From NCBI RefSeq assembly GCF_902459525.1, contig NZ_LR699166.1:1500501-1564500 (forward strand): DNA of 64,000 nt. The letters run 5' to 3'. Position 1 is the stretch's first letter. Every line of letters starts with the position of its first letter. Origin of the DNA: Sideroxydans sp. CL21. Its GTDB lineage: Bacteria; Pseudomonadota; Gammaproteobacteria; Burkholderiales; Gallionellaceae. This document shows positions 10,381-63,611 of this stretch, in pieces. Made by a program: the position numbers and the translations under genes. Under the pieces are notes generated by a model, which made no database searches, was not told the origin of the DNA, and saw only the letters and a program-made list of their open reading frames with translations.

Positions 10381-10435
10381 CGAAATTGGCGCAATTGATT
10401 AGCTGGTCGCTGCTCCGAAATTGGCGCAATTGATT
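10381..10435 (+). promoter_or_regulatory. Two identical 20-base direct repeats, operator-like
   Basis: CGAAATTGGCGCAATTGATT occurs at 10381-10400 and again, without mismatch, at 10416-10435. The start-to-start distance is 35 bases. Each copy contains the inverted repeat AATTG-GCG-CAATT, so each could be a dimeric regulator site in DNA or a small hairpin in the leader RNA. The second copy ends 15 bases before the ATG at 10451, close enough to affect ribosome binding. Confidence 0.6.
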
Positions 10436-10450
10436 GGTCAGAGAATTTCA

Positions 10451-11359
10451 ATGACAACATTAGCCACATCTCTTCAGCCCTTAGACAGGCGCAAACAACA
10501 AAGACAAAAGAACCAACCTAAAGACTATGGCTGGACACTATATATGATAGTGGTCACCTTGTTGATGTTTGCCGGTTTTTTTGTTTCCTATGACCATCTG
10601 TACAAGCCCGGCGACAATATCGGTTACAACATCGGGCTGGTGGGCGGGATCATGATGCTGACGCTCCTGATCTATCCGTTGCGCAAGCGGGTGGGATTCA
10701 TGAAAAACTGGAGCATCCTGCCCAAATGGTTCAGGTGGCATATGGTTTTCGGCATACTCGGACCTGCCCTCATCATTTTTCATTCTACCTTTCGTATCGC
10801 GTCGATCAACGCAGGCGTCGCCATGGTATGCATGCTGCTCGTATCGGGTAGCGGAATATTCGGGCGTTTCTTCTATACGAAGATCCATAACGGACTCTAT
10901 GGGCGACAGTCGTCGTTTCAGCAGTTGCAGGCCGACCTGGAAGGATCCGGGGACGTGAAATCCGTTCTCAGTTTCGCTCCCGAAATTGAAAAAAAGCTCG
11001 AAGATTTTCGCGATCGGGTCCTGTCGTCTTCGAAGGCGGGAAAACTCAACGGATGGAATTTCATATCGTTGGGTTTCAGGATCAAATGGTTTTCACGGAA
11101 CCTGACAAGAGAACTTGAAGATGCCATGTACGCTGACGCCAATGCGAAGCAATGGAACAGCGCGCAGATGAAACGTCTCGACGAGCTTTTCTACCAGAAC
11201 GAAAAATTCATCAGCACTTATCTTGTCACCGTGCGAGATGTTGCGCAATTCTCTACCTACGAAAAGCTGTTTTCCTTATGGCACATATTCCATGTGCCAC
11301 TGGTTTACATGTTGGTATTCAGCGCGATCTGGCACGTAATTTCGGTTCATAAATATTAG
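10451..11359 (+). CDS. Inner-membrane protein with paired H-X13-H helices, putative diheme cytochrome b
   Basis: 302 residues with about five hydrophobic segments (near 28-47, 60-77, 96-114, 121-141 and 276-298) and a soluble middle region (145-270). Histidines 97 and 111 lie 14 apart in the third segment, and 281 and 295 lie 14 apart in the last; this H-X13-H on two helices is how cytochrome b and ferric-reductase-type proteins bind two hemes b. It has no CXXCH. It is the first gene of the cluster and abuts the next cytochrome with no gap. Published PCC3-type clusters carry a conserved inner-membrane protein here; I infer it exchanges electrons between quinone and the periplasmic cytochrome. 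ATG at 10451 is chosen over TTG at 10421, which falls within a repeat. Confidence 0.65.
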   Translation: MTTLATSLQPLDRRKQQRQKNQPKDYGWTLYMIVVTLLMFAGFFVSYDHLYKPGDNIGYNIGLVGGIMMLTLLIYPLRKRVGFMKNWSILPKWFRWHMVFGILGPALIIFHSTFRIASINAGVAMVCMLLVSGSGIFGRFFYTKIHNGLYGRQSSFQQLQADLEGSGDVKSVLSFAPEIEKKLEDFRDRVLSSSKAGKLNGWNFISLGFRIKWFSRNLTRELEDAMYADANAKQWNSAQMKRLDELFYQNEKFISTYLVTVRDVAQFSTYEKLFSLWHIFHVPLVYMLVFSAIWHVISVHKY

Positions 11360-13150
11360 ATGGCCAGTCATTGCATGAAATGGGCAATCTTGAAGGCGTG
11401 CGTGCTGGCAACGCTTGCCTTTTCCGGTCAGGCACATGCCGATTCCGCCAATGATCTGTTGATGCCGGGCCAGGTAATACAGGGGCATGTCAAACTCGAA
11501 AGCGAGTGCAGCAACTGCCATAAGCCCTATGACAAATCAGCCCAGGCCGGATTGTGCAAAGACTGTCACAAGGAGATCGCGAAAGACATCGCCGACAAGC
11601 ATGGTTTCCACGGCCTGATGAAGGAAGAAAAGCCATGCAAAGAGTGCCACACGGAACACAAGGGACGGGACGCTCGCATTGCAAAACTCAATACCGTCGA
11701 TTTCGATCACATGACGACCGGATTCGAGCTGAAAGGAGCGCACTTAAGCAGCAAGGTTCTCTGCAAGGACTGCCACTCCCCGCAAAAAAAATACCGGCAA
11801 GCGCCCGTCAAATGCATCGGTTGTCACGAAAAGGCGGACAAACACAAAGGTTCTCTGGGACCTGAATGCCAGAACTGCCACGAAGAAAAGGATTGGAAGA
11901 CGACCCATTTCGACCACAGCAAAACCCATTTCCCCTTGCTGGGCAAGCATGTGGATGTGAAATGCAAGGACTGCCATCCAGACAACAAGTTCAAGGACAC
12001 TCCGTTGCAATGCGACGAGTGCCATAAGAAAGACGACAAGCACAAGGGGCATTTCGGACCCAAGTGTGAAACTTGCCATAACGAAAAGAGCTGGAAAGAA
12101 ATCCTGTTCGACCATGACAAGAAAACCAAATATCCGCTGCTTGGAAAACATCGTGAGACAAAGTGCGTCAGCTGTCACAAGGGAGATCTTTATAAGGAAA
12201 AGCTGAAGACCAACTGTGTTTCATGCCATCAAAAAGACGACAAGCACAAGGGCAAGTTTGGGCCGAAATGCGAGTCCTGCCATATTGAGCGCAGCTGGAA
12301 GGAAATCCCGTTCGATCATGACAGGAAGACCAAATTCCCGTTGCTTGGGAAACATCGCGATGTCAAGTGCAACGATTGCCACAAGGGCGATTTGTATAAG
12401 GACAAGCTCAAGATGGATTGCTACTCCTGTCACCAGAAAGACGACAAGCACAAGGGGAATTTCGGACCCAAGTGCGAAATTTGCCATAACGAAAAGAGCT
12501 GGAAGGAAATTATTTTCGACCACGACAAGAAGACCGATTACCCGCTGTTGGGCAAGCATCGCGATACGAAATGCGTCAGTTGCCACAAAGGTGATTTGTA
12601 CAAGGACAAGCTGAAGACATCCTGTTCTTCATGCCACGACAAGGACGACAAGCATAAAGGCGAGGAGGGGAAGAAATGCGAATCCTGCCATCATGAAGAT
12701 TCGTGGGAAAAAGCCGAATTTGATCACAGGGTTTCGCGCTTCCAGCTTACCGGCCAGCATATATTGACCCAATGCAAAAAATGTCATTTATCTGTGGTAT
12801 TCAAGGAGGCCAAGTCGGATTGCACGTCTTGCCATGCTAAACAAGACGTGCACAAACGCACCCTTGGCACTGCATGTGATACTTGCCACAACACTCGCGA
12901 CTGGAAAGACTGGGATTTCGATCACGATAAAACCAACTTCAAGCTTGACGGAAAGCACAAGGGACTCAAGTGTATCGATTGTCACAATACACCGGTAAGC
13001 AGCAAAGTGGTTCTGGCGGCAACCTGCGTCAGTTGTCATGATAAGGATGACAAGCACAATGGCGATTTCGGAAAGCAATGCGATCATTGCCATGTTGGAT
13101 TGAACTGGAAAACGATCAAGGTTGGAAGTCGACGCTGGATAAACTATTAA
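11360..13150 (+). CDS. 24-heme c-type cytochrome, periplasmic-type member of the cluster
   Basis: 596 residues. A signal peptide (hydrophobic stretch to about residue 26, ending QAHA before DSAND) precedes 24 CXXCH heme c sites. Residues 167 onward consist of three-heme modules of 66-68 residues: CXXCH, then SWKE..FDHD, then PLLGKHR..KC, CXXCHKGDLYK, CXXCH and KDDKHKG. The conserved His in FDHD, KH and DKHK are good distal heme ligands. It is lysine-rich and highly soluble, with no lipobox and no other membrane segment, so it is expected in the periplasm, bridging the inner-membrane protein and the outer-membrane conduit. Its ATG directly follows the preceding TAG. The exact periplasmic role is inferred from cluster layout. 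Confidence 0.85.
   Translation: MASHCMKWAILKACVLATLAFSGQAHADSANDLLMPGQVIQGHVKLESECSNCHKPYDKSAQAGLCKDCHKEIAKDIADKHGFHGLMKEEKPCKECHTEHKGRDARIAKLNTVDFDHMTTGFELKGAHLSSKVLCKDCHSPQKKYRQAPVKCIGCHEKADKHKGSLGPECQNCHEEKDWKTTHFDHSKTHFPLLGKHVDVKCKDCHPDNKFKDTPLQCDECHKKDDKHKGHFGPKCETCHNEKSWKEILFDHDKKTKYPLLGKHRETKCVSCHKGDLYKEKLKTNCVSCHQKDDKHKGKFGPKCESCHIERSWKEIPFDHDRKTKFPLLGKHRDVKCNDCHKGDLYKDKLKMDCYSCHQKDDKHKGNFGPKCEICHNEKSWKEIIFDHDKKTDYPLLGKHRDTKCVSCHKGDLYKDKLKTSCSSCHDKDDKHKGEEGKKCESCHHEDSWEKAEFDHRVSRFQLTGQHILTQCKKCHLSVVFKEAKSDCTSCHAKQDVHKRTLGTACDTCHNTRDWKDWDFDHDKTNFKLDGKHKGLKCIDCHNTPVSSKVVLAATCVSCHDKDDKHNGDFGKQCDHCHVGLNWKTIKVGSRRWINY
12056..12667 (+). repeat. Three tandem 204-base heme modules
   Basis: Units start at 12056, 12260 and 12464, each exactly 204 bases (68 codons, three CXXCH sites), with near-identical protein and strongly similar DNA. 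Shorter, more divergent units of the same type flank them on both sides. The array shows that the cytochrome grew by internal duplication, and that in-frame gain or loss of three hemes at a time is possible. Confidence 0.85.
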
Positions 13151-13159
13151 CGTTAATAG
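13144..13159. promoter_or_regulatory. Perfect 16-base palindrome at the end of the 24-heme cytochrome gene
   Basis: CTATTAACGTTAATAG is its own reverse complement and spans the stop codon of the first cytochrome gene, 172 bases before the next start. It could be a regulator site for the second cytochrome or a minor RNA hairpin. There is no U-run, so it is not a classical terminator. Confidence 0.4.
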
Positions 13160-13330
13160 CGGACCATTGCCGTTCATCAGTTGGTTGTGCCGTTTGTACT
13201 TTTGTCTCACACCCGATGAGCGGCTGCATGGAATTGCGGACACATATATACAATTCTGAATAGGTAAAAAGTGCTGACACTATTCACTTTTCGTCAATAT
13301 GGATCGAAATTTTGCAGCGAGGTATCGATT

Positions 13331-16189
13331 ATGAATACGCCAACAACACGTTACGGGATTGCCGGAATGCTGGTGGTCTTGATGTTCAGCCTTTCATTCT
13401 TTGCGACTGCAGTGCAGGCGGTTACGGTAGAAAATTCCTTCGATCACTCGAAAACAGGGTTTGTTCTCAGGGAAGTTCACGCGACACTAAAATGCGAACA
13501 GTGCCACGTCGACGGCATATTCAAGAACACGCCCAAAGACTGTGCCGGCTGTCACAACACCGGAACGAGAGTCGCTGCTCTGCCAAGACCGATAAATCAT
13601 ATTCCCACAACTTTTTCGTGTGACACCTGCCATATCAGTGCTGCCAGCTTCCTGATAAAGAGCTTCAGTCACGTCACAATTACCGGTCAATGCGAGACTT
13701 GCCACAATGGACAGTCACTCGGTGTCGTGAGCAAACCGGTAAATCACTTCCCGACCCAGTCGCCCTGCTCGTACTGCCACAAGAATACCAGCACTTTCCT
13801 GAGCTACCAGGTCGATCATGTGGCGAATGGTTATGTGGGAAACTGTTTCCAGTGTCATGGCGGTCCGGCGGGTGAGCCGGGACCGATAGGAACCTTCCCC
13901 AACGTTGTCAGTTACAACCCGATGACTCACATTCCGTTGGGGACGAACCCGCCGGATTGCAATACATGCCATATCGGCTTTTCTACGTTCTTGGGCGCTA
14001 CTTTCGCCCATACACCGGGTTCCACATGTTCTTCTTGCCATGAGGGACAATACGCAGGAGTTGTATCGATCAATAAATCAATTCACATTCCGGCACCAAC
14101 CGGATCCAATGTGGATACCTGCGTTAGCTGCCATTCCGATCCAACGTCCCAGCCTCTTCCGACATTTCTGGGGGTGGCATTCCATACAACTACTATAGGG
14201 AATCCCCCCGCAGGCACGTGCGCGACCTGCCATAACGGAGGTTTCGTGTCGCAAAACGCGCAAACAAAAGGCACGGTACATATACCGACCACTGCAGATT
14301 GCGGGACTTGTCACACCGGTCCAAGCGGAACGCCGGCCAATTCAACCCTGAACTACACAACCTTTCTTGATGCAAAATTCCACCAGACTTCATTGGGAAA
14401 TCCTCCAACCGTTGCATGCTCCACCTGTCATAACGGCAGTTATGTAGCTGTAGGCGCACAAGGAAAGAATGCGGGCCATGTAGTGACAACATCGGATTGT
14501 GTGGCATGCCACACCGTAACGAATACGGCAACTTACACTACGTTTTTGGGCGCCAGTTTTTCACATGTACCGGGGGTTTATACAACGACATTCCCTGCTG
14601 ACGGATCAATAGCAACACCTACATGTATGTCTTGTCACAACGGTGCTACCGCTACCGGCAAAGTTGCGGGTCATATATTGACATCGGCGGACTGCAATTC
14701 CAGCGGCTGTCACACCGTGGCTTCTGATGGTTGTCCTACTTGTGTGAATTTTTCCGGCGTGATTTTTAACCATATCAATTCTACCACGGGATATACCTCG
14801 TTCGGTACGACCGCACCGTCACCGTACACCAAGCGTTGCGATAGCTGTCATAACGGAACAACGTTGCTGGCGCAACCCGTTAGTGCAGGGCACATACCAA
14901 CTTCAGGAGCAGATTGCGTTACGTGCCACACCCCGGCCAGCACAGGTTGTGCAAATGGCGGAAATTGCGCAACGTTCCTGAACGCGACACTCAACCACAG
15001 CACAGTTGCAGCTGGATCTTGTGGAACCTGCCACCAGGGACAATATGCCGGTGTGGTCTCGATCAATCCCGCTATCCATATCCCGCAATCATCCGGGAAT
15101 GCATGCGATGTGTGCCATACAAATGCGATCACCAATCTGCTCACGGCATTTCCCGCCAACCCGACATTCCTTAATGTGGTGTTCCATAAGACTTCCTTGG
15201 GAAATCCGCCAACAGGTTTATGCTCGAACTGCCATTCCGGGACTTACATCTCTCAAAATGCTCAGTCCGAAAGCAGTGTGATCACAAACCATGTGGCTAC
15301 GACGGCCGATTGCGTGACCTGCCATACCGCAACGAACACCACCAATTACACTTCGTTCCTGGGGGCCGGCTTTACCCACTCGCCCGGAACCTATGCATCC
15401 TGGCCACCTGCGCAGCCGCCAACGCCGACCTGTGCGTCCTGCCACAATGGCGCGACAGCGACGGGTAAGAATGCCGGTCATCCGGTCACGGCTCTGGATT
15501 GCATGTCATGCCACACTACGACTGTTCTGCAGGGGTGTCCGACTTGTACACTTTTCGGAATACCGGCGGGCGTCATACATAACACCGCGCCCTACAATAC
15601 ACCCGGCACCTGCATAACATGCCATAACGGGGCGACTGCGATCGGGCTTTCCTCCGATACCGGCCACATACCGACCGGATCGATTGGATGCGACCAATGC
15701 CACTCTGTGTATGACGGAGTAGGTTCCATCAACTTCAGTACCGCTGCCGTGTCTACGATCTCCGTGAGCGGAGTGACGAAGTACGGTATGAACCATTCCG
15801 CTCCGGGACTCACAGGCCGTTGCGATAGTTGTCACAATGGCTCCTATACCGGTCAGGGATTGTTTGGTGCCGTAACCAAAGTATCCAACCACATACCGAC
15901 GACAATTATCAGCACCTCAGCCAACACGGATTGCACCAGTTGCCATTCCACGACCATTACTGTCTCGTCAGGGGCTGCTGATTGGGCAACCGGCGAGAAA
16001 ATGAATCACAATAATGCGCAGGGTGGCGCACCGAATTACTGTGTGACATGCCACCTGAAAGGCGTTACCTATTTGTCTAAAGCGCAATTGATCAGCCATA
16101 ACGGAGCCAGCACGTCCAAGGATTGTTCAAGTTCAGGTTGCCATAAGCCCCTGGGTAGCAAAGGATCCGCATATTCATCATGGGATTGA
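13331..16189 (+). CDS. 27-heme (29 with CX4CH) c-type cytochrome, probable outer-surface component
   Basis: 952 residues with a signal peptide (hydrophobic 10-28, ending AVQA) and no lipobox. I count 27 CXXCH sites plus two CX4CH sites (14693-14713 and 16124-16144). It is rich in Thr, Ser, Gly and Asn, unlike the lysine-rich preceding cytochrome, which fits an exposed protein. Repeated themes are NHIPT or GHIPT before a heme site, and F-x-H about 10 residues before CXXCHNG. A module of about 130 residues is duplicated (14361-14743 and 15167-15548). By analogy with PCC3-type clusters it should sit outside the cell on the porin and take electrons from Fe(II) or minerals. The ATG at 13331 has GCGAGG eight bases upstream. 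Confidence 0.8.
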   Translation: MNTPTTRYGIAGMLVVLMFSLSFFATAVQAVTVENSFDHSKTGFVLREVHATLKCEQCHVDGIFKNTPKDCAGCHNTGTRVAALPRPINHIPTTFSCDTCHISAASFLIKSFSHVTITGQCETCHNGQSLGVVSKPVNHFPTQSPCSYCHKNTSTFLSYQVDHVANGYVGNCFQCHGGPAGEPGPIGTFPNVVSYNPMTHIPLGTNPPDCNTCHIGFSTFLGATFAHTPGSTCSSCHEGQYAGVVSINKSIHIPAPTGSNVDTCVSCHSDPTSQPLPTFLGVAFHTTTIGNPPAGTCATCHNGGFVSQNAQTKGTVHIPTTADCGTCHTGPSGTPANSTLNYTTFLDAKFHQTSLGNPPTVACSTCHNGSYVAVGAQGKNAGHVVTTSDCVACHTVTNTATYTTFLGASFSHVPGVYTTTFPADGSIATPTCMSCHNGATATGKVAGHILTSADCNSSGCHTVASDGCPTCVNFSGVIFNHINSTTGYTSFGTTAPSPYTKRCDSCHNGTTLLAQPVSAGHIPTSGADCVTCHTPASTGCANGGNCATFLNATLNHSTVAAGSCGTCHQGQYAGVVSINPAIHIPQSSGNACDVCHTNAITNLLTAFPANPTFLNVVFHKTSLGNPPTGLCSNCHSGTYISQNAQSESSVITNHVATTADCVTCHTATNTTNYTSFLGAGFTHSPGTYASWPPAQPPTPTCASCHNGATATGKNAGHPVTALDCMSCHTTTVLQGCPTCTLFGIPAGVIHNTAPYNTPGTCITCHNGATAIGLSSDTGHIPTGSIGCDQCHSVYDGVGSINFSTAAVSTISVSGVTKYGMNHSAPGLTGRCDSCHNGSYTGQGLFGAVTKVSNHIPTTIISTSANTDCTSCHSTTITVSSGAADWATGEKMNHNNAQGGAPNYCVTCHLKGVTYLSKAQLISHNGASTSKDCSSSGCHKPLGSKGSAYSSWD

Positions 16190-16269
16190 TTTGTTGATTG
16201 GCAGACTTATGGTTCAAGCCGACTTTAGCGAAGCCGGCATGGTGGTTTTTAAATCGAGCGACACAAATT

Positions 16270-18783
16270 ATGTTCGGAATTAAATTGCATCGTTTGGTTT
16301 TGTCATTTCTTGCGGTGATACTGCTGGATATGGTGTCCTCTTATGCGTCCGCCGAGATCATCGATGACATCACTGTGCATCAGGACGCAAGCGGAGGGAC
16401 GGAAACGGTGATCAAATTTACTGTCCCGATCCAGTATCTGCGACACTTTCCCCAAGGCAAATCAAGTTCCACCACAGTATATTTCAATATCCTTAATACC
16501 GTTCCTGCCGATGAGTGGCAGGATTATGAATCGCACCGGACGCCTCCCTCCGACCTCGTTCAGGAGATTATGGTTACCACGCGAGATCGCGGCACCGGAC
16601 CCAAGATTCATATCACATTCTATCGCCCCGCAGAATTCACCGTCGGGATGGGAAGCGACAATCAGACTTTGGTGATTCATATCAAACCGGTCGCGACGCA
16701 GCGAAATAACGAGAACAAGCCGGCTGCAGGACAGTCCGGCATTACTTCGATTCCAGTTGCGGCGGCGCCGGCCGCTGTTATCGCGGCAATTCCGAAATCA
16801 CCGCCGGTAGCTCCCTCGTCAGGAACCCCAGCAGTTGCCGCTGCCAATCAGAAGTCAGCAGCCCCTCCGACACCAGTACCAGCTGCAACAACGGCAACAC
16901 CAGCAGCACCGGTTGCCCCCACTGGCAATATCACTGCACCCAAGGTCGCGCTGAAGCAGTCCTCGTCAAAGCCCATTCATATCCCATTGGGAGGAAAAGA
17001 CGGGCTGCCGCCGTTTCCTGAAATTGACCAGTTCGTCGTCCAGCAAGGAGCAACGCCCGCAAACGCGTCGCTGGCCGACAAGATCTCGATCGCGAACAAT
17101 CAGGCCGCCGCATTGATGGAAAATGGAGGCAATGCGCTTCTGACTGGCCAAACATTTGCAGCAATCGAATCATTCAATCAAGTACTCAACCTGCCTCCGA
17201 ATAAATATACGGAAGATGCCCAGTTGTGGATCGGGATCGCAAAAGAGAGATTGGGGCAGCTATCCAAAGCTGTACTGGAATTCAATGCCTACTTGAGACT
17301 TTACCCGGAAGGAAAATCCGCGAAATGGGTGAAGGATCGCCTCGCCAAGCTGAAGCTATCGCAACCGGCGATTTTCGCTGCCTTGGATAAACAGCCTACA
17401 GGCCCAGCCAGAGTGCAAAACACCGAATTTCAGTATTCGGAATTCGGCAGTTTGTCGATGTACTACTATCAGGGCGCAAGCCAGACAAATACCGTCGCGA
17501 GTGCAGGCCTGGTCCAGACGCCGACTACCTTTTCACTCATTGACCAGAAATCCCTGATAACCAATCTCAACATGACCGCGCGGTCGTACAACAACGAATA
17601 TGACAATCGTTTGGTATTTCAAGATTTCTACGCGGCGAACTTTCTTCCGGGACAGCAAAACATTGGGATGCTGGGTGCGGCCTACTATGAGATGAAAGAC
17701 CGGATTGTGGATTATTCATTCAGAGTCGGCCGACAGTCGGGACTGGGTGGCGGGGTGATGGGCAGGTTTGATGGCGTTTCGGCCGGTTACGGGTTTGCGT
17801 CGAATTGGAGAGTGAATGTAGTGACGGGCCAGTTGTCCGACTTCACCATTGACCGCAAACCCACTTTTTACGGCGCCAGCGTGGACTTCGGCACCAAGAG
17901 CCAGTTAGGGGGATCCGTTTACGGGATTACACAACAGGTCGACGGATTCACCGACCGGAGGGCGGTCGGCGGGAACCTGAGATATTTTGACCAGAAGTTC
18001 AACATCATGTCCATGGTGGACTACGACGTGCTGTTCAAGGCGTTGAATATTTTCACCGTGCAGGGAACTTTGAATGGCGGAGGGGTCGGCGGCACGGACT
18101 ACAACTTCCTGCTTGACCGCCGCAGAAGTCCGGTTCTGGATGTGAGAAATGCGATCAATGGCACCACTTCGACGATCGCAACCCTGATGCAAAACGGTTG
18201 GTCCATGAGCGATCTGATTTTATTGGCAGGTCAGCGCACGACAGTTTCGGAAATGGCGCAAGTCGGCATGACCAATCATTTGAGCGAAAAATGGTTCATC
18301 GGTACTGACTTCAGCATTGCAAAGACAGCAGGCATGAATTCCAGCGGAACGCTGCTGCCGGACGGTACAACCGGAGTGGAAGGGTTCGTACCTGCGATTC
18401 CTTCCACGGGCAATACCTGGACGATAACCGAAAGAGCGACCGGTCTCGGGGTTATCCGTCCGCAAGATACGACGAACTTCAGCGTGAGTTACTCCAAGGG
18501 CGCGCTGATTGCTGCCGAAGGATTTCAAGCCAGCAACCATGTCGATCTGCAAGAAAAATGGACACTGGATTCGACTTTCGTCCTGAATTTTCAAACCGAC
18601 AATACCGGCGGCAAAATGAACGATGTCCAGCCAACAATAAGGGTGGCTTACAAGCTGAGAAGGAATCTGTCTACAGACGCGCAATTGGGTCTTGACTGGA
18701 ACAAGACGACTTCCACCGTGTTGCAGTCCACTTCGACCGCATTGCGGGAATTCGTTGCGTTCGGCTTCCGCCTGGATTTTTGA
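16270..18783 (+). CDS. Outer-membrane beta-barrel with N-terminal AMIN-like and TPR domains, porin of the cluster
   Basis: 837 residues. Order: signal peptide (to about residue 31, YASA before EIID); a beta-rich domain of about 110 residues resembling AMIN domains; an Ala/Pro/Thr-rich linker (about 145-235); a TPR-like helical region near 270-375 (AALMENGGNALLTGQ, YLRLYPEGKSAKWVK); then about 450 residues of alternating beta-strands ending VAFGFRLDF with the terminal Phe of outer-membrane barrels. The barrel would house heme-to-heme contact between the two cytochromes, like MtrB/MtoB, but it shares no obvious sequence with mtoB here. ATG at 16270 is preferred over a TTG at 16198 because it places the signal peptide correctly. 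The AMIN call is tentative. Confidence 0.75.
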   Translation: MFGIKLHRLVLSFLAVILLDMVSSYASAEIIDDITVHQDASGGTETVIKFTVPIQYLRHFPQGKSSSTTVYFNILNTVPADEWQDYESHRTPPSDLVQEIMVTTRDRGTGPKIHITFYRPAEFTVGMGSDNQTLVIHIKPVATQRNNENKPAAGQSGITSIPVAAAPAAVIAAIPKSPPVAPSSGTPAVAAANQKSAAPPTPVPAATTATPAAPVAPTGNITAPKVALKQSSSKPIHIPLGGKDGLPPFPEIDQFVVQQGATPANASLADKISIANNQAAALMENGGNALLTGQTFAAIESFNQVLNLPPNKYTEDAQLWIGIAKERLGQLSKAVLEFNAYLRLYPEGKSAKWVKDRLAKLKLSQPAIFAALDKQPTGPARVQNTEFQYSEFGSLSMYYYQGASQTNTVASAGLVQTPTTFSLIDQKSLITNLNMTARSYNNEYDNRLVFQDFYAANFLPGQQNIGMLGAAYYEMKDRIVDYSFRVGRQSGLGGGVMGRFDGVSAGYGFASNWRVNVVTGQLSDFTIDRKPTFYGASVDFGTKSQLGGSVYGITQQVDGFTDRRAVGGNLRYFDQKFNIMSMVDYDVLFKALNIFTVQGTLNGGGVGGTDYNFLLDRRRSPVLDVRNAINGTTSTIATLMQNGWSMSDLILLAGQRTTVSEMAQVGMTNHLSEKWFIGTDFSIAKTAGMNSSGTLLPDGTTGVEGFVPAIPSTGNTWTITERATGLGVIRPQDTTNFSVSYSKGALIAAEGFQASNHVDLQEKWTLDSTFVLNFQTDNTGGKMNDVQPTIRVAYKLRRNLSTDAQLGLDWNKTTSTVLQSTSTALREFVAFGFRLDF

Positions 18784-53547: not shown

Positions 53548-53659
53548 TAATTCGAGTGCGGTCTTCCGATATTTCCACGTGATTGGGTTGTCATCACCGA
53601 GTTTCCGGAAATATTTGAGCCCGTGCTCAGAGTCATTAATTCAAATTAGGGGTAGCAAG

Positions 53660-54739
53660 ATGATCAGGGAGCGATTCATTTGCAATAACGCAATCGTGGC
53701 TGTGATAGCCGTATTGTGGCTGGTGGCGGGGGCAGCGATTGCCGCTGAGCCCGCTGCATCGGGAGTTACGATGGCCGAACCGGCAGCGATAGATGTGCCG
53801 GTACCGGTATTGGCTTCGACGACAAAGCAACCTGCAACTTATGTCGGTGAGAAGGTATGCACCGGTTGCCACGATGCAGAGAACAAAAGTTTCGGGCACA
53901 CGCTTCACGCTAAAACTTTCCGCGAAAATCCAAGCAACGAAACCGAAAAGACGGTCTGCGAGGCATGCCACGGTCCCGGTTCGCTTCATGCAAAAAATAC
54001 CAAAGATCGCAGCCTGCTGATCGGATTCTCCAAAGGGTGGGGGACTCCGGTCGATAAGATGAACAGGCAATGCCTGAACTGCCACAAGGGCGGGCAGCGC
54101 ATATTCTGGGAAGGATCCATCCACCAGACCAATAAGCTGGCCTGCAGCGACTGCCACAATCCGATGGCCAAATTCTCCTCCGGCGGCTTGCTGAAGAAGC
54201 CGAGCATTACCGAGACCTGCCAGACCTGTCACCAGCAGCAGCGCGCCGAATTCAAGAAGAAGTCGCATATGCCGGTGCCTGAAGGAAAGATGACCTGCGA
54301 GGACTGCCACAACCCGCATGGCACTTCCAATAAGCGCCTGCTCAAGGCGGATAGCGTCAATGAGCTCTGCTACACCTGCCATGCCGAGAAGCGCGGTCCC
54401 TACCTGTGGGAACACGCTCCCGTCCGGGAAAACTGCATGAATTGCCACGTTCCGCACGGCTCGAACAACGACAAATTGCTCGTCCAGACGCGTCCCTTCC
54501 TGTGTTCCGGTTGCCACAGCACGACTGGCTCAATGGGTCACCTGGTTTGGGGTAACAACACGACGGGCAACGTCGTGAATGGTGATCCAACTTCATTGGG
54601 CCAAACCAATGCAGGTCTGCAGGCCAACAGCGGAGCAACGATTCTTGCCTCCAAACGTATGACCGGCCGTTCCTGCCAGAACTGCCACAGCATGATCCAC
54701 GGTAGCAACGATCCGGGTGGCGCGCGATTCCAGCGCTGA
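53660..54739 (+). CDS. mtoA: Decaheme c-type cytochrome MtoA (MtrA/PioA family)
   Basis: 359 residues with signal peptide (hydrophobic 11-27, ending AIAA) and exactly ten CXXCH sites spaced as in MtrA/DmsE decahemes (for example CTGCHDAENKSFGHTLHAK, CEDCHNPHGTSNK, CYTCHAEKRGPYLWEHAPV, CMNCHVPHGS). Known members sit within the MtrB-type porin and carry electrons across the outer membrane; MtoA of Sideroxydans is linked to Fe(II) oxidation. The ATG at 53660 has GGGG eight bases upstream. The frame upstream of it is non-coding leader. It is followed by mtoB after 77 bases. No mtoD or cymA-like gene is in the window. Confidence 0.93.
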   Translation: MIRERFICNNAIVAVIAVLWLVAGAAIAAEPAASGVTMAEPAAIDVPVPVLASTTKQPATYVGEKVCTGCHDAENKSFGHTLHAKTFRENPSNETEKTVCEACHGPGSLHAKNTKDRSLLIGFSKGWGTPVDKMNRQCLNCHKGGQRIFWEGSIHQTNKLACSDCHNPMAKFSSGGLLKKPSITETCQTCHQQQRAEFKKKSHMPVPEGKMTCEDCHNPHGTSNKRLLKADSVNELCYTCHAEKRGPYLWEHAPVRENCMNCHVPHGSNNDKLLVQTRPFLCSGCHSTTGSMGHLVWGNNTTGNVVNGDPTSLGQTNAGLQANSGATILASKRMTGRSCQNCHSMIHGSNDPGGARFQR

Positions 54740-54816
54740 TCCGAAAAGGAAACGACGAGATGAAAGCAATCAAACATTTTGAAAAAGTCGAAACAAATTG
54801 CGACCGGAGGTTTTTA

Positions 54817-57720
54817 ATGAATAACAGCCCGCGTATGAAATTGATTACGCTTTGCATCGGTGCCGCACTCGCACAGATGGCAAGCCTGTCTGCATTGGCA
54901 GATACCGCAGTAGGTGTGGATACGGTTAACGGCAATGCTTCCAACCCGGGTTATCTTTCCGGCCCCACGCAGATGGATGAAGATATGTCGGCCGTCCAGC
55001 GTTCGCCTTCTGGCCAGATGTACAGCATTCCCATGGTAGACAAACCGGAGGCGCCCAAAGGCCAGCTTGCGGGTGGAATAGATATCGGCGTTATGCAACA
55101 AAGTGACTCCACGCCGTATGCGAAACGAACCGAATATTCGGATCAGCGGAACGGAATCTATTTCAATAACTTCAATTTGTCGGAGGATTCCGAAGGAGCG
55201 CGTTACTTCACCATCAACGGCGGCGGTGTGGGCCGCAAGGACCAGTTTTACGACTTTACGACCGGCAAATATGGCAGCTGGAAGGTGAAGACTTTTTACA
55301 ACGAAACGATGCACGTTTTTACCGACACATGGAAATCGCTCTACAGCGGCGAAGGTACGGGCAATCTGACTACCGGGCTACCCATGCCAACCATGGTCAC
55401 GACGGGTTCCCCTACCGTGGGTACCGCTGCTTGTACACCGACGGCACCGTGCTGGAGTTATGGTGGCAAAACGTATGCCAATGCTTCCGCTTTGGCCGGG
55501 ATTAACGGAACAACAGGAACGATGACTGCAGCCGGGGTCATTCCTGTTGCTACCGGTGCTGGCGCGACAGGCGCGGTGCAATCCAACATGGCTGCCGCCA
55601 TTGCAGCCAAATTGGCCGCAACTCCCTACAGCGAATTGAGTCTGGTGCGGAAAAAAGGCGGCACACGTGCCGATATCAAACTGACCGACAGCGTGAAAGC
55701 TTATGTCAGCTACACGCTGGAAAAACGCGTGGGTGCGCGGCCTTTTGCAATGAACGACGGCAATGTCTCGACCGAGATCGCGGAACCGATCGATTACAAG
55801 ACGCATGACATGCTGGCAGGCCTCACTTATTCGGATGAGCTGACTCAGGCCAATCTGCGCGCATCTGCTTCCATATTCCGCAATAACATCAACACGCTGA
55901 ATGTCCAGTATGCGCTGCTGGGCTCTGCGGCACCGCAAGGGGCCATACAGCACGCAACTTTCGACCTGCCCCCGGACAATGATGCGTTCAACCTCAAGGG
56001 CGAGTTTGCCCGCAGCTTGCCTGATCTCTGGAAGGGCCGGTTTACCGCAGCTGTTTCTTATGGATCGAATCGCCAGAACGATACCTTGTTAGCCCCTATT
56101 TCGGACGCCCAGAATGCCGATCTGGCAGCTGCCGGCGTGACGGGTTTCACCGGCGCAAATCCTGGTTATGCAGCCAATTCATTATTGGTCAGCAATTGGA
56201 ACACCACCAACGCATTGAGCCAGAAGACTGCGAATCAGCGCATCGACAACAAGATGATCAATCTTGGTTTGTCCCTGAACCCGATCGAGGATCTTAACGT
56301 GAAGGGAAGTTACCGTTTCTACGATACGGCCAACAAGGGCGGATATGTTGCTTATAACCCGCTCACCGGCCAGTTCGGTCGCGGCCCCAGCACCGGCAAC
56401 GGTACCGGCGCTGCTGATTTGGTGATAGCACCCGGGGCTGTGGCAGGCAGCTGCTATGCGCTACCCGGCTATCCGGTTGTTCCCGGATGTTCGTCGGCCA
56501 TCCTTGCCAACGGTTCCAACATTCCTGTCTTCGGTCAGGCGCGGTCTACCAGACAGGCAAATTACGGTCTCTCCGCCGATTACGATCTGACCCGGACAAG
56601 CAGCGTGAACGGGGCTCTTGAGCGTGAGGACTTCTATCGCAACTTCAGAGAGCGTGACAAGACCTGGGAAAACAAAATCAAGCTCGGATTCGTCAATCGC
56701 GATTTGTGGGACACGACCCTGCGCATCTCTTTCGAGAACGACACCAAGCGCGGAAGCGCATACAAATACCGGACATTCGCGGATTTGGGTACCGGCTTGC
56801 CCGGGTTGGATGTGGTGACCCAGCTTGCCAATATGAATCCAACGACAGGTGCAGGCTTGCTGGTCAACGGTTCGACATATCCAACGCTCAATGCAAACCT
56901 GTTCAGTCGTTATTCGTCCTTCTTCCGCAAATACGATCAGGCAGACCGCAACCAGAACATCCTGAACACTCGCGTTAACGTCATGGCAACGGAAGACATG
57001 GACGTGGGTGTGAATATGCAGGTCAAAAGAGCCAACTATACGGATTCTTTTTATGGCTTGAAAAAAGACAATCAGGATTCGATTGGGTTCGATCTCAACT
57101 TCCAGCCTTCGATCAGCAGCATCATTACCGCTTTCTACAATTATCAGCAGGGCAGCAAGTCAATGACGATGAACTCCGGAGTGGCAGGGGCCGCATCCTG
57201 CACGATGGCCAATCTGGCTGCTTACGGGTATTCCGCATGTTCCGATACGACGACCGGACTGAACGGAGCGCGCCCATACACCGATACATGGACTTCGAAT
57301 ACTACCGATCGCAACGATGTAATCGGGCTGGGTTTGCAGGAAGATTTGGGTTTCGCCAGACTCGGAATCGACTATACGTTTTCAAAGAGCAACACTCATA
57401 TTTCTTACGACTTCGGCTCCACCGCATTCAGCGCCATTGCCGCCAATAACTCGGCAATGGCCGCGCTTGCGGGCAGTGCTTTGCCTGACATGACTACGCT
57501 GCAAAACACCCTGGCTCTGAACCTGGTCAGGAATATCAATAAGAAAACCACTATTCGTGCGACGTATCGTTTCGAGAGTATGCGAATCGCGGATTGGCAC
57601 TATGACGGTGTAATGCACAACGTAATGGCCGCGTACGATGCCAATACATTGCTGCTGGATTCCGGTCCGATGAACTACCACGTCAGCACCTTTGGTGTGA
57701 TGCTGAACTACAAGTTGTAA
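54817..57720 (+). CDS. mtoB: MtrB/PioB-family outer-membrane porin MtoB
   Basis: 967 residues, longer than MtrB of Shewanella (about 700). Signal peptide ends near SALA before DTAVGV. The rest is mostly alternating beta-strands with long Gly/Asn/Thr loops, consistent with a large barrel ending in MLNYKL. The barrel sheaths MtoA, giving an insulated electron path. I choose the ATG at 54817 because GGAGG lies six bases upstream and the signal peptide then starts properly; an in-frame ATG at 54760 would add 19 residues. Two insertions rich in Thr/Ala/Gly (near residues 175-260 and 530-590) explain part of the extra length. A strong terminator follows. Confidence 0.9.
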   Translation: MNNSPRMKLITLCIGAALAQMASLSALADTAVGVDTVNGNASNPGYLSGPTQMDEDMSAVQRSPSGQMYSIPMVDKPEAPKGQLAGGIDIGVMQQSDSTPYAKRTEYSDQRNGIYFNNFNLSEDSEGARYFTINGGGVGRKDQFYDFTTGKYGSWKVKTFYNETMHVFTDTWKSLYSGEGTGNLTTGLPMPTMVTTGSPTVGTAACTPTAPCWSYGGKTYANASALAGINGTTGTMTAAGVIPVATGAGATGAVQSNMAAAIAAKLAATPYSELSLVRKKGGTRADIKLTDSVKAYVSYTLEKRVGARPFAMNDGNVSTEIAEPIDYKTHDMLAGLTYSDELTQANLRASASIFRNNINTLNVQYALLGSAAPQGAIQHATFDLPPDNDAFNLKGEFARSLPDLWKGRFTAAVSYGSNRQNDTLLAPISDAQNADLAAAGVTGFTGANPGYAANSLLVSNWNTTNALSQKTANQRIDNKMINLGLSLNPIEDLNVKGSYRFYDTANKGGYVAYNPLTGQFGRGPSTGNGTGAADLVIAPGAVAGSCYALPGYPVVPGCSSAILANGSNIPVFGQARSTRQANYGLSADYDLTRTSSVNGALEREDFYRNFRERDKTWENKIKLGFVNRDLWDTTLRISFENDTKRGSAYKYRTFADLGTGLPGLDVVTQLANMNPTTGAGLLVNGSTYPTLNANLFSRYSSFFRKYDQADRNQNILNTRVNVMATEDMDVGVNMQVKRANYTDSFYGLKKDNQDSIGFDLNFQPSISSIITAFYNYQQGSKSMTMNSGVAGAASCTMANLAAYGYSACSDTTTGLNGARPYTDTWTSNTTDRNDVIGLGLQEDLGFARLGIDYTFSKSNTHISYDFGSTAFSAIAANNSAMAALAGSALPDMTTLQNTLALNLVRNINKKTTIRATYRFESMRIADWHYDGVMHNVMAAYDANTLLLDSGPMNYHVSTFGVMLNYKL

Positions 57721-61625: not shown

Positions 61626-63611
61626 ATGATTCCAGAGATCGGTAATTTCGCACTCATCGTCGCCTTGTTTCTTTCCATCATTCAAGGTGTGATGCCCATC
61701 ATCGGAGCGGCACGCAACAATACGGTGATGATGGGCACGGCACGCACATTGGCGGTTGGCCAGTTTGTCATCGTCACGGTCGCCATCGGCTGTCTGGTGT
61801 ATTCCTTCGTGAACAACGATTTTTCCGTGCTGTACGTTGCCCAGCATTCCAACTCGCAATTGCCGATTCAGTACCGCGTGGCAGCGCTTTGGGGCGGCCA
61901 CGAGGGGTCGCTGTTGCTGTGGACGTTCATCCTGACCGTGTGGACGGTTTCTGTCGCCACATTCAGCCGCCATCTGCCGCAAGAAATGGTGGCGCGCGTG
62001 ATCGGTGTGATGGGGCTTATTTCCACCGGTTTCCTGCTGTTCATGCTGCTGACATCCAATCCGTTTGATCGCCTGTTGCCTGCGGCGATGGACGGAAACG
62101 ATCTGAATCCGTTGCTGCAAGATCCGGGATTGGTGATCCATCCGCCGATGCTGTACATGGGGTATGTCGGATTTTCGGTGGCATTTTCGTTTGCGCTGTC
62201 GGCCTTGTTAGGGGGGAAACTCGATTCAACCTGGGCGCGCTGGTCGCGTCCGTGGACTACCGTGGCGTGGGTGTTCCTCACCATCGGCATCATGTTGGGT
62301 AGCGTTTGGGCATATTACGAATTGGGCTGGGGTGGCTGGTGGTTCTGGGATCCGGTGGAGAATGCCTCGTTCATGCCCTGGCTGGCTGGCACGGCTCTGA
62401 TCCATTCCTTGGCGGTGACGGAAAAGCGCGGGGCGTTCAAGAGCTGGACGGTCTTGCTGGCCATTGCCGCATTCTCGCTCAGTCTGTTGGGGACGTTCCT
62501 CGTTCGGTCGGGCGTGCTGACTTCTGTGCACGCGTTCGCAACCGATCCCAAGCGCGGCATTTTCATTCTTACCTTCCTGGTGGTGGTCATCGGCGCATCC
62601 TTGCTGCTGTTCGCATGGCGGGCACCCAAGATCGGGTTGGGCGGCAAATTCGACCTCATCTCGCGCGAGTCGATGCTGCTCGCCAACAATGTGCTGTTGT
62701 CCGTGGCGTCCGCTTCCGTGTTCTTGGGGACGCTGTATCCGCTGTTCATGGATGCGCTGGGTTTCGGCAAGCTTTCCGTTGGTCCTCCGTACTTCAATGC
62801 CGTGTTCGTTCCCCTGATGGTTCCATTGGTGATGATGATGGGCATGGGTCCGATCGCACGCTGGAAACATGCGACTGTGCCGGATATCTGGCAGCGCGTG
62901 CGCTGGGCGCTGGGCGCCAGCATGGTCATCGCCTTGCTGTTGCCCTTGGTCATGGGTAAATGGACACCGCTAATCGCACTCGGATTGTTGCTGGCCGCCT
63001 GGGTCGTCACCACATCGCTGCTCGATCTGCGCAAGCGCATCGCCGGTTCCGGCGATTTGTTGCTACGTTTAAAAACACCTTCCCGCAGCTACTACGGCAT
63101 GTTGCTGGCTCACCTTGGCATTGCCGTGTTCATTATCGGCGTGACGATGGTCAAAGGTTACGAGACCGAACGCGACGTGCGCATGGATGTCGGCGACACG
63201 GTCGAGGCCGGTGGATATGAGTTCCGCTTCGACGGCGTGATCGACGTGCCCGGCCCCAATTATGTGGCATCGCAAGGCCGGGTGACCGTCAGCAAGGGTG
63301 GCAATCTGGTGACCGAGTTGCATCCTGAAAAGCGTGCGTACAACGTTTCCGGCATGCCGATGACCGAAGCATCCATTCAACCGGGACTCACGCGCGACCT
63401 GTATGTATCGCTGGGCGAGCCGATTCCCGGCACCACTGCCTGGGCCGTGCGTGTTTATATCAAGCCTTTCGTGGACTGGATCTGGTTCGGTTGCCTGATG
63501 ATGGCTATGGGTGGTGTATTGGCGATCAGCGACCGTCGCTATCGAATTCACGCTCGCAAAACGCAGGCCGCCAGCGTGGGCGGAGAGCAATTGAGGGAGA
63601 AGACAGCATGA
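61626..63611 (+). CDS. ccmF: Cytochrome c heme lyase component CcmF
   Basis: 661 residues, about 13-15 helices, with the WWD motif GWGGWWFWDPVENASFMPWL and conserved periplasmic histidines (LLVIHPPMLYMG-like region DPGLVIHPPMLYMGYVG, and TALIHSLAVTEKRG). It takes heme from CcmE and, with CcmH/I, attaches it to CXXCH apocytochromes, so it serves all multiheme proteins in this window. Its stop overlaps the ccmG start (ATGATG). Confidence 0.96.
   Translation: MIPEIGNFALIVALFLSIIQGVMPIIGAARNNTVMMGTARTLAVGQFVIVTVAIGCLVYSFVNNDFSVLYVAQHSNSQLPIQYRVAALWGGHEGSLLLWTFILTVWTVSVATFSRHLPQEMVARVIGVMGLISTGFLLFMLLTSNPFDRLLPAAMDGNDLNPLLQDPGLVIHPPMLYMGYVGFSVAFSFALSALLGGKLDSTWARWSRPWTTVAWVFLTIGIMLGSVWAYYELGWGGWWFWDPVENASFMPWLAGTALIHSLAVTEKRGAFKSWTVLLAIAAFSLSLLGTFLVRSGVLTSVHAFATDPKRGIFILTFLVVVIGASLLLFAWRAPKIGLGGKFDLISRESMLLANNVLLSVASASVFLGTLYPLFMDALGFGKLSVGPPYFNAVFVPLMVPLVMMMGMGPIARWKHATVPDIWQRVRWALGASMVIALLLPLVMGKWTPLIALGLLLAAWVVTTSLLDLRKRIAGSGDLLLRLKTPSRSYYGMLLAHLGIAVFIIGVTMVKGYETERDVRMDVGDTVEAGGYEFRFDGVIDVPGPNYVASQGRVTVSKGGNLVTELHPEKRAYNVSGMPMTEASIQPGLTRDLYVSLGEPIPGTTAWAVRVYIKPFVDWIWFGCLMMAMGGVLAISDRRYRIHARKTQAASVGGEQLREKTA

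Follow-up and report, generated by a model that had tools for sequence, protein, structure and literature searches.

A PCC3-type multiheme gene cluster of Sideroxydans sp. CL21 and a candidate fifth component encoded elsewhere in the genome

The MtrCAB, MtoAB and PioAB electron conduits combine a periplasmic cytochrome with an outer-membrane barrel and, in some, an outer cytochrome, and the MtrB barrel has 26 strands. The PCC3 cluster was described by He et al. in 2017 (PMC5566968) and taken up again by Hoover et al. in 2023 (PMC10734462) and in work on Sideroxydans sp. CL21 (PMC12442390); here and below, published work other than PMC6952672 is drawn on through portions of its main text. PCC3 has four components in these accounts. 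We analyzed a 64,000-nucleotide stretch of the CL21 genome (the window; contig NZ_LR699166.1, positions 1,500,501 to 1,564,500), a genome assembled as a single contig of 3,772,857 bases, and found such a cluster at window positions 10451 to 18783. We propose, at a probability of roughly 0.55, that this cluster is an electron conduit of the PCC3 type whose function depends on a fifth protein, encoded at another place in the genome.

An earlier note on this DNA had read the cluster as four consecutive genes on one strand with the composition of PCC3, and the list of open reading frames (ORFs) and the motif counts bear this out. All four genes are on the forward strand. The first encodes an inner-membrane protein (IMP; 10451 to 11359, 302 aa) with probably five transmembrane (TM) helices and two HX13H motifs, a predicted diheme b protein. 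The second gene directly abuts the IMP stop, with zero gap, and encodes a putative periplasmic multiheme cytochrome (MHCp; 11360 to 13150, 596 aa) with 24 CXXCH motifs, equal to eight triheme modules, and further conserved His residues. The putatively exported multiheme cytochrome (MHCe; 13331 to 16189, 952 aa, counted from the ATG at 13331 within an ORF that runs from a GTG at 13271) has 27 CXXCH and two CX4CH motifs, and the porin (16270 to 18783, 837 aa) is counted from an internal ATG at 16270 in an ORF that opens with a TTG at 16198. Signal peptides were judged by eye. The presence of a barrel, two multiheme cytochromes and an IMP encoded together, the gene order and the IMP signature agree with the PCC3 of He et al., and the cytochromes show the many hemes (24 and 29 motifs), the repeats and the few residues per heme (family medians of 25 and 29 aa) of that class. 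The same likeness in genes, order, IMP motifs and high heme numbers extends to the two later accounts.

The cluster itself has very probably been published already, and it is probably the CL21 "PCC3 copy 1", given there as having 24 and 14 hemes (PMC12442390). The DNA of copy 1 encodes 24 and 29 motifs with MHCe in one open frame; 14 CXXCH motifs precede MHCe residue 454, and from the sequence the published figure of 14 is possibly a half-length count. A second PCC3 copy in the genome (L025), with cytochromes of 24 and 10+2 motifs, and two decaheme genes scoring over the MtoA-type cut-off also agree with the published descriptions of CL21 (PMC6952672; PMC12442390). The Slit_1446-1449 cluster of S. 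lithotrophicus ES-1 (24/28 hemes) is likely a near ortholog of the window cluster; ES-1 is inferred to be our genome G124, in which the two PCC3 clusters have MHCp/MHCe CXXCH counts of 24/28 and 21/17. PCC4 is similar to PCC3 in having an IMP with WX3HX13H and SGXXG motifs, a barrel and periplasmic multiheme cytochromes, but it has three of the latter and no extracellular one (PMC5566968), whereas the window cluster has two multiheme cytochrome genes and so falls outside PCC4. It differs from MtrCAB, MtoAB and PioAB in its porin, which has 22 predicted strands and no match to MtrB_PioB (PF11854) at an E value of 0.1.

Conservation of the gene set and its order was assessed in 109 loci, comprising 100 stretches fetched around IMP matches in searches of family (158) and class (369) genomes, from which some matches were left unfetched, the second copy L025, and eight named loci (L007 and L018 to L024). 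L001 to L006 and L008 to L017 were left out as repeats of counted loci or other matches, and a few near-identical pairs (for example, L018/L024, L083/L084 and L092/L094) were counted twice. All four families were present in 83 of the 109 loci, and in 18 others one family ORF was truncated where the stretch ends. The remaining eight had a lone IMP (L061 and L065), IMP and MHCp only (L029, L089 and L122) or partial or distant sets (L123 to L125). The order was exactly IMP, MHCp, MHCe, porin on one strand in 79 loci, doubled pieces being allowed, and 3 more differed only by an additional cytochrome after the porin (82 in total); in L023 and L121, IMP was on the opposite strand. Since Pfam Cytochrome_C7 matched both window cytochromes (1.3e-28 and 1.9e-34) and the set is kept by relatives, the grouping is more than chance. 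PCC3 is widespread, with an IMP match at an E value of 1e-40 or better in 42 of the 369 class genomes. The lone IMP gene of CL21 (L061; G000:C1:3048910-3049809), which is close to L017 from a Sideroxydans MAG (metagenome-assembled genome), and that of L065 were accompanied by neither a cytochrome nor a porin of PCC3 within the stretches fetched. In L028 (12666-13873; G153) a second MHCp behind the porin, with 15 CXXCH motifs before the contig end, indicated a tandem PCC3.

It had also been suggested that the four proteins span the envelope without extra parts. This did not hold among relatives, where 83 of the 104 loci with an MHCp had a fifth gene, here called FS, within the DNA fetched. FS is normally divergent from a nearby IMP gene. 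The FS of the second CL21 copy (G000:C1:3132973-3134268; L025:12973-14268) is 431 aa long and divergent from its IMP. Pfam matches to Fer4 and Pyr_redox_3 (2.4e-42) identify a ferredoxin joined to an FAD/NAD(P) oxidoreductase, and a hydrophobic N-terminus followed by R/K residues points to a membrane anchor. Two ferredoxin-like sites (residues 58-98) are formed by C58, C64, C68, C88, C94 and C98, each kept in at least 97% of 82 FS sequences; the second cysteine of the usual ferredoxin motif is missing from both. In one of these sites a near-invariant His stands there, in the form CXXHXXC.

FS follows IMP across genome samples. Hand tallies of the positives gave, for the family sample (158 genomes), 63 genomes with both genes, 1 with IMP only, 4 with FS only and 90 with neither, so that the two occur together in 63 of the 68 genomes having either. 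The class sample (369 genomes) gave 41 with both, 5 with IMP only (G348, and G248, G312, G324 and G402, whose IMP matches are weak, with E values of 8e-14 to 1e-17), 2 with FS only (G255 and G335) and 321 with neither, and the phylum sample (398 genomes) 6 with both and 392 with neither; the samples overlap (G000, the window genome, is in all of them, and G134 and G243 also recur). Fisher p values for the association were 5e-38 in the family and 7e-51 in the class (with the four weak IMP matches set to none), both inflated by shared descent, and the class positives are spread over many families. FS can thus be taken as a marker gene for PCC3.

The window cluster belongs to a part of the IMP tree in which FS is mostly kept elsewhere in the genome. 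Its IMP falls in a set of 13 rows (support 100/94), 11 of which lack FS in the DNA fetched around them, and for 10 of these 11, FS was located elsewhere in the genome (L007 being taken as G140 from its coordinates), the exception being G146. The window genome has a single FS, beside the second PCC3 copy only. In G123 (one contig, 99% complete), which has a single window-type IMP, FS stands alone 0.8 Mb away, at the place where the window genome holds FS and the whole second quartet; its flanking genes were read by eye as what we take to be queC and sucC. G124 likewise has FS alone at that place. A lone FS in a genome with a window-type quartet indicates that FS outlives or precedes a neighboring quartet, as expected for service in trans, and this arrangement of genes suggests that FS serves the window-type quartet in this way.

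FS as a part of PCC3 was not found by the literature searches made for it or in the main-text portions searched. In those of He et al. 2017, mentions of Fe-S, flavin, pyridine, NADH, ferredoxin and upstream genes concern no PCC3 gene, and in those of Hoover et al. 2023, mentions of ferredoxin, FAD, oxidoreductase and NADPH are untied to PCC3. Hoover et al. list a 4Fe-4S ferredoxin cluster that has a single CX2-4CH motif; it is probably not FS, since only 2 of the 82 FS sequences have such a motif. A subgroup of PCC4 has an Fe-S gene upstream of IMP, given as pfam13247 rather than as an FAD/NAD(P) fusion (PMC5566968). Strict triheme steps in MHCp and SPOR or TPR domains in the porin are likewise unmentioned in these texts, and the papers listed by a literature search on SPOR or AMIN dealt with type IV pili and with type 2 secretion. 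Within the literature searched, what is new is therefore FS as a near-obligate partner, its site in trans in the window clade, the triheme steps and the porin domains.

A diheme b nature had been predicted for IMP, and the published signature of the PCC3 and PCC4 proteins (about 300 aa with five TM helices, WX3HX13H in TM3 and TM5 and SGXXG in TM4; PMC5566968) is indeed present in its sequence. The window IMP has zero CXXCH motifs, HX13H pairs at H97/H111 and H281/H295, WX3H at 93 and 277, and SGXXG at 134; three of the four His residues are invariant in the alignment, and H295 is absent only from one truncated row. Hydropathy windows at 27-45, 57-75, 96-114, 108-126, 119-137 and 273-291, of which the middle three were taken as two helices, are compatible with the helices of the structure model, and a loop of about 130 residues precedes the last TM helix. 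By the positive-inside rule, the N-terminus (6 K/R, 2 D/E), the 77-94 loop (5, 0) and, weakly, the long loop (20, 17) would lie on the cytosolic side. He et al. proposed a likeness of IMP to FRD (PMC5566968). NADPH oxidases and ferric reductases (PF01794) likewise join a transmembrane two-heme b part to a flavin module that uses NAD(P)H in the cytosol, an arrangement to which IMP and FS may be analogous; the latter differ in being separate polypeptides, with extra Fe-S sites and a flavoprotein resembling YpdA and thioredoxin reductase.

We put forward, at less than even odds, that PCC3 is an NAD(P)H-linked oxidoreductase of five proteins working across the envelope and not a quinone-linked branch of iron oxidation, with one FS in trans serving one or more quartets in the window clade. 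FS on the cytosolic face would carry electrons between NAD(P)H, through its FAD and Fe-S sites, and the two b hemes of IMP, the pair acting as a split counterpart of an NADPH oxidase or ferric reductase. MHCp would form a rod of six to nine triheme modules across the periplasm, and the porin would let it contact MHCe at the N-terminal end, which is the better conserved one, leaving a variable MHCe arm outside. The electron path would be NAD(P)H to FS, to the heme b pair, to MHCp, to MHCe, or the reverse. Flow is probably outward, to an extracellular acceptor; this is the least certain step, and the only argument for it is that the membrane potential assists electrons on their way out of the cytosol. 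If the five-protein reading is true, electrons pass directly between NAD(P)(H) in the cytosol and the exterior of the cell through a modular rod of 18 to 27 hemes. FS would name a cytosolic redox partner of PCC3 and make the direction testable.

Several points weigh against this proposal. The biochemistry of every part is predicted, and FS could belong to a different process with only a regulon or habitat in common. IMP had no Pfam match at an E value of 0.1, including PF01794, and its fold search gave no match with an E value below 0.001, so that its heme b is a prediction. IMP occurs without FS in G146 (92% complete), and FS without a detected IMP in G010 (99% complete) and in G091, G144 and G151 (69 to 82%). 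FS is lost as a neighbor in the window-type clade, whose IMP may instead work with a different partner, for example quinone. Pfam did not find SPOR in the porin of the window. Last, the IMP, MHCp and porin of the near-ortholog cluster in ES-1 were detected on both Fe(II)-citrate and magnetite, in comparable amounts (PMC12016527), as would also fit a role with iron.

These ES-1 proteins also count in favor of the alternative that survives best, although we consider it unlikely: a quinone-linked inward conduit for Fe(II) or Fe(II) minerals, running from MHCe through MHCp and IMP to quinone, with FS a bystander. He et al. drew such an inward model and likened IMP to quinone-active b cytochromes (PMC5566968), whose His pattern it has. 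The IMP of CL21 copy 2 rises significantly as iron oxidation begins, but copy 1 falls, non-significantly (PMC12442390); both copies are expressed above the mean, and extracellular electron transfer is given there as a putative function of PCC3. Against the inward model, both ES-1 PCC3 clusters, including the 24/28-heme one, are down on Fe(II) (PMC8788666), the ES-1 outer cytochrome Slit_1448 is 0 in all eight proteome columns (PMC12016527), and FS follows IMP as described above. The earlier note had favored a self-contained route from the quinone pool to the outer surface, for Fe(II) oxidation or another extracellular donor or acceptor. A dedicated Fe(II) role lacks support from the ES-1 transcripts, and the mixed published data neither show nor exclude such a role for the window copy; the quinone pool was an inference, and the conserved partner FS points to NAD(P)H instead.

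The nearest solved chains to FS are YpdA/Bdr (2.6e-28), followed by thioredoxin and ferredoxin-NADP reductases. This kinship, the 24 and 29 heme motifs of the cytochromes and a ccmF gene in the same window would fit a role in assembly, in which FS and IMP pass NADPH reducing power to the periplasm and keep CXXCH thiols or hemes reduced during maturation. We regard this as improbable, since the only near-invariant cysteines of FS are the six in its Fe-S sites, leaving no conserved redox disulfide.

The number of CXXCH motifs in MHCp was a multiple of three, namely, 18 (3 ORFs), 21 (50), 24 (38) or 27 (9), in 100 of the 103 ORFs not touching a stretch end; of the three exceptions, two are fragments of a single broken gene in L024 and the third is a distant ORF with 7 hemes in L124. 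Every third heme motif recurs mostly 66 to 70 residues on, core modules being about 68 aa, and in the alignment whole modules are present or absent. Module number changed 22 times by parsimony on the IMP tree, always within six to nine modules; this tree (108 rows) has unsettled bootstrap support, and fewer changes are forced when only strong branches are used. The ten-heme MtrA is about 100 Å long (PMC5566968), or about 1 nm per heme, and 18 to 27 hemes would therefore extend about 18 to 27 nm. Hoover et al., who list 21, 24 and 27 hemes, proposed that MHCp may span the periplasm (PMC10734462), and we suggest that its length may equal the periplasm width. With its strict triheme steps, MHCp would offer a simple system for testing whether a protein wire is tailored to that width, MHCe serving as an unconstrained control. 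That the hemes instead serve mainly as an electron store, a possibility raised by Hoover et al. (PMC10734462) and suited to the very high heme counts, is improbable given a module number that changes often yet stays at six to nine, as for a gap-spanning part, and the porin and second cytochrome that accompany MHCp in the 83 complete loci, with 18 more cut off.

The CXXCH number of MHCe does not follow a triheme rule (28, 30 and 37 of 95 ORFs in the three classes modulo 3). Mean identity outside C/H was 0.40 in the N-terminal 150 residues, 0.27 in the middle and 0.26 at the end (first 60 of the long ones). The final heme motif was CX4CH in 45, CX3CH in 26 and CXXCH in 24 of 95 ORFs, and an odd final motif occurred in only one of 106 MHCp ORFs; an odd C-terminal heme site is thus common in the MHCe family, and the window MHCe ends in CX4CH. 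It has no lipobox, there being no Cys ahead of residue 55. An MHCe frame of 4,086 codons in G370 (L126:977-13234; G370:C17) has 144 heme motifs (133 CXXCH, 10 CX4CH and 1 CX3CH), and at its end it overlaps a frame, read from stop to stop, that matches the porin model (E value of 8.7e-120). A count of 113 was called the highest recorded in 2020 (PMC7082337), later records having been looked for only narrowly.

For the porin, the outer-membrane barrel that had been predicted is supported by an AlphaFold model (9 sequences, mean pLDDT of 69.7, pTM of 0.47), in which 22 strands run to the C-terminus at residues 388-836 and which Foldseek and VIA-align matched to porins and TonB-dependent barrels. 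The predicted barrel corresponds to residues 388-837 (17431 to 18780). It follows an N-terminal beta-domain (residues 31-140; 16360 to 16689), a disordered Pro/Ala linker and a TPR-like region (residues 268-363; 17071 to 17358) with five helices in the model and YfiO/TPR matches below the Pfam cut-offs. Among 33 porin pieces, Pfam matched SPOR in 9 and TPR_6 in 13. SPOR binds cell-wall glycan, and the porin may be held to the cell wall. AMIN was not among the Pfam families listed for the N-terminus, which gave one chance PDB match and resembles AMIN by eye only. Ten class-level loci have separate ORFs of 148 to 197 aa matching the beta-domain, and in some of them (for example, L101, L102 and L117) the porin also keeps its own copy; in an eleventh (L119), the beta-domain ORF lies inside a long porin frame.

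Just upstream of IMP is a 20-nt direct repeat (10381 to 10435, strand not assigned; copies at 10381 and 10416, 35 bp apart), a possible operator, the core of which could not be detected in any of five related loci compared (L025, L026, L027, L031 and L032). Further along the window, an mtoAB-like pair (53579 to 57720, forward strand) consists of a decaheme cytochrome gene (10 CXXCH motifs, scoring above the DmsE/MtoA-type cut-off) and, behind it, an MtrB/PioB porin gene whose product matches PF11854 (286.6 bits, 5.8e-85). The ccmF gene (61626 to 63611, forward strand; CcmF_C, 8.9e-136), involved in cytochrome c maturation, lies in the window together with both conduits.

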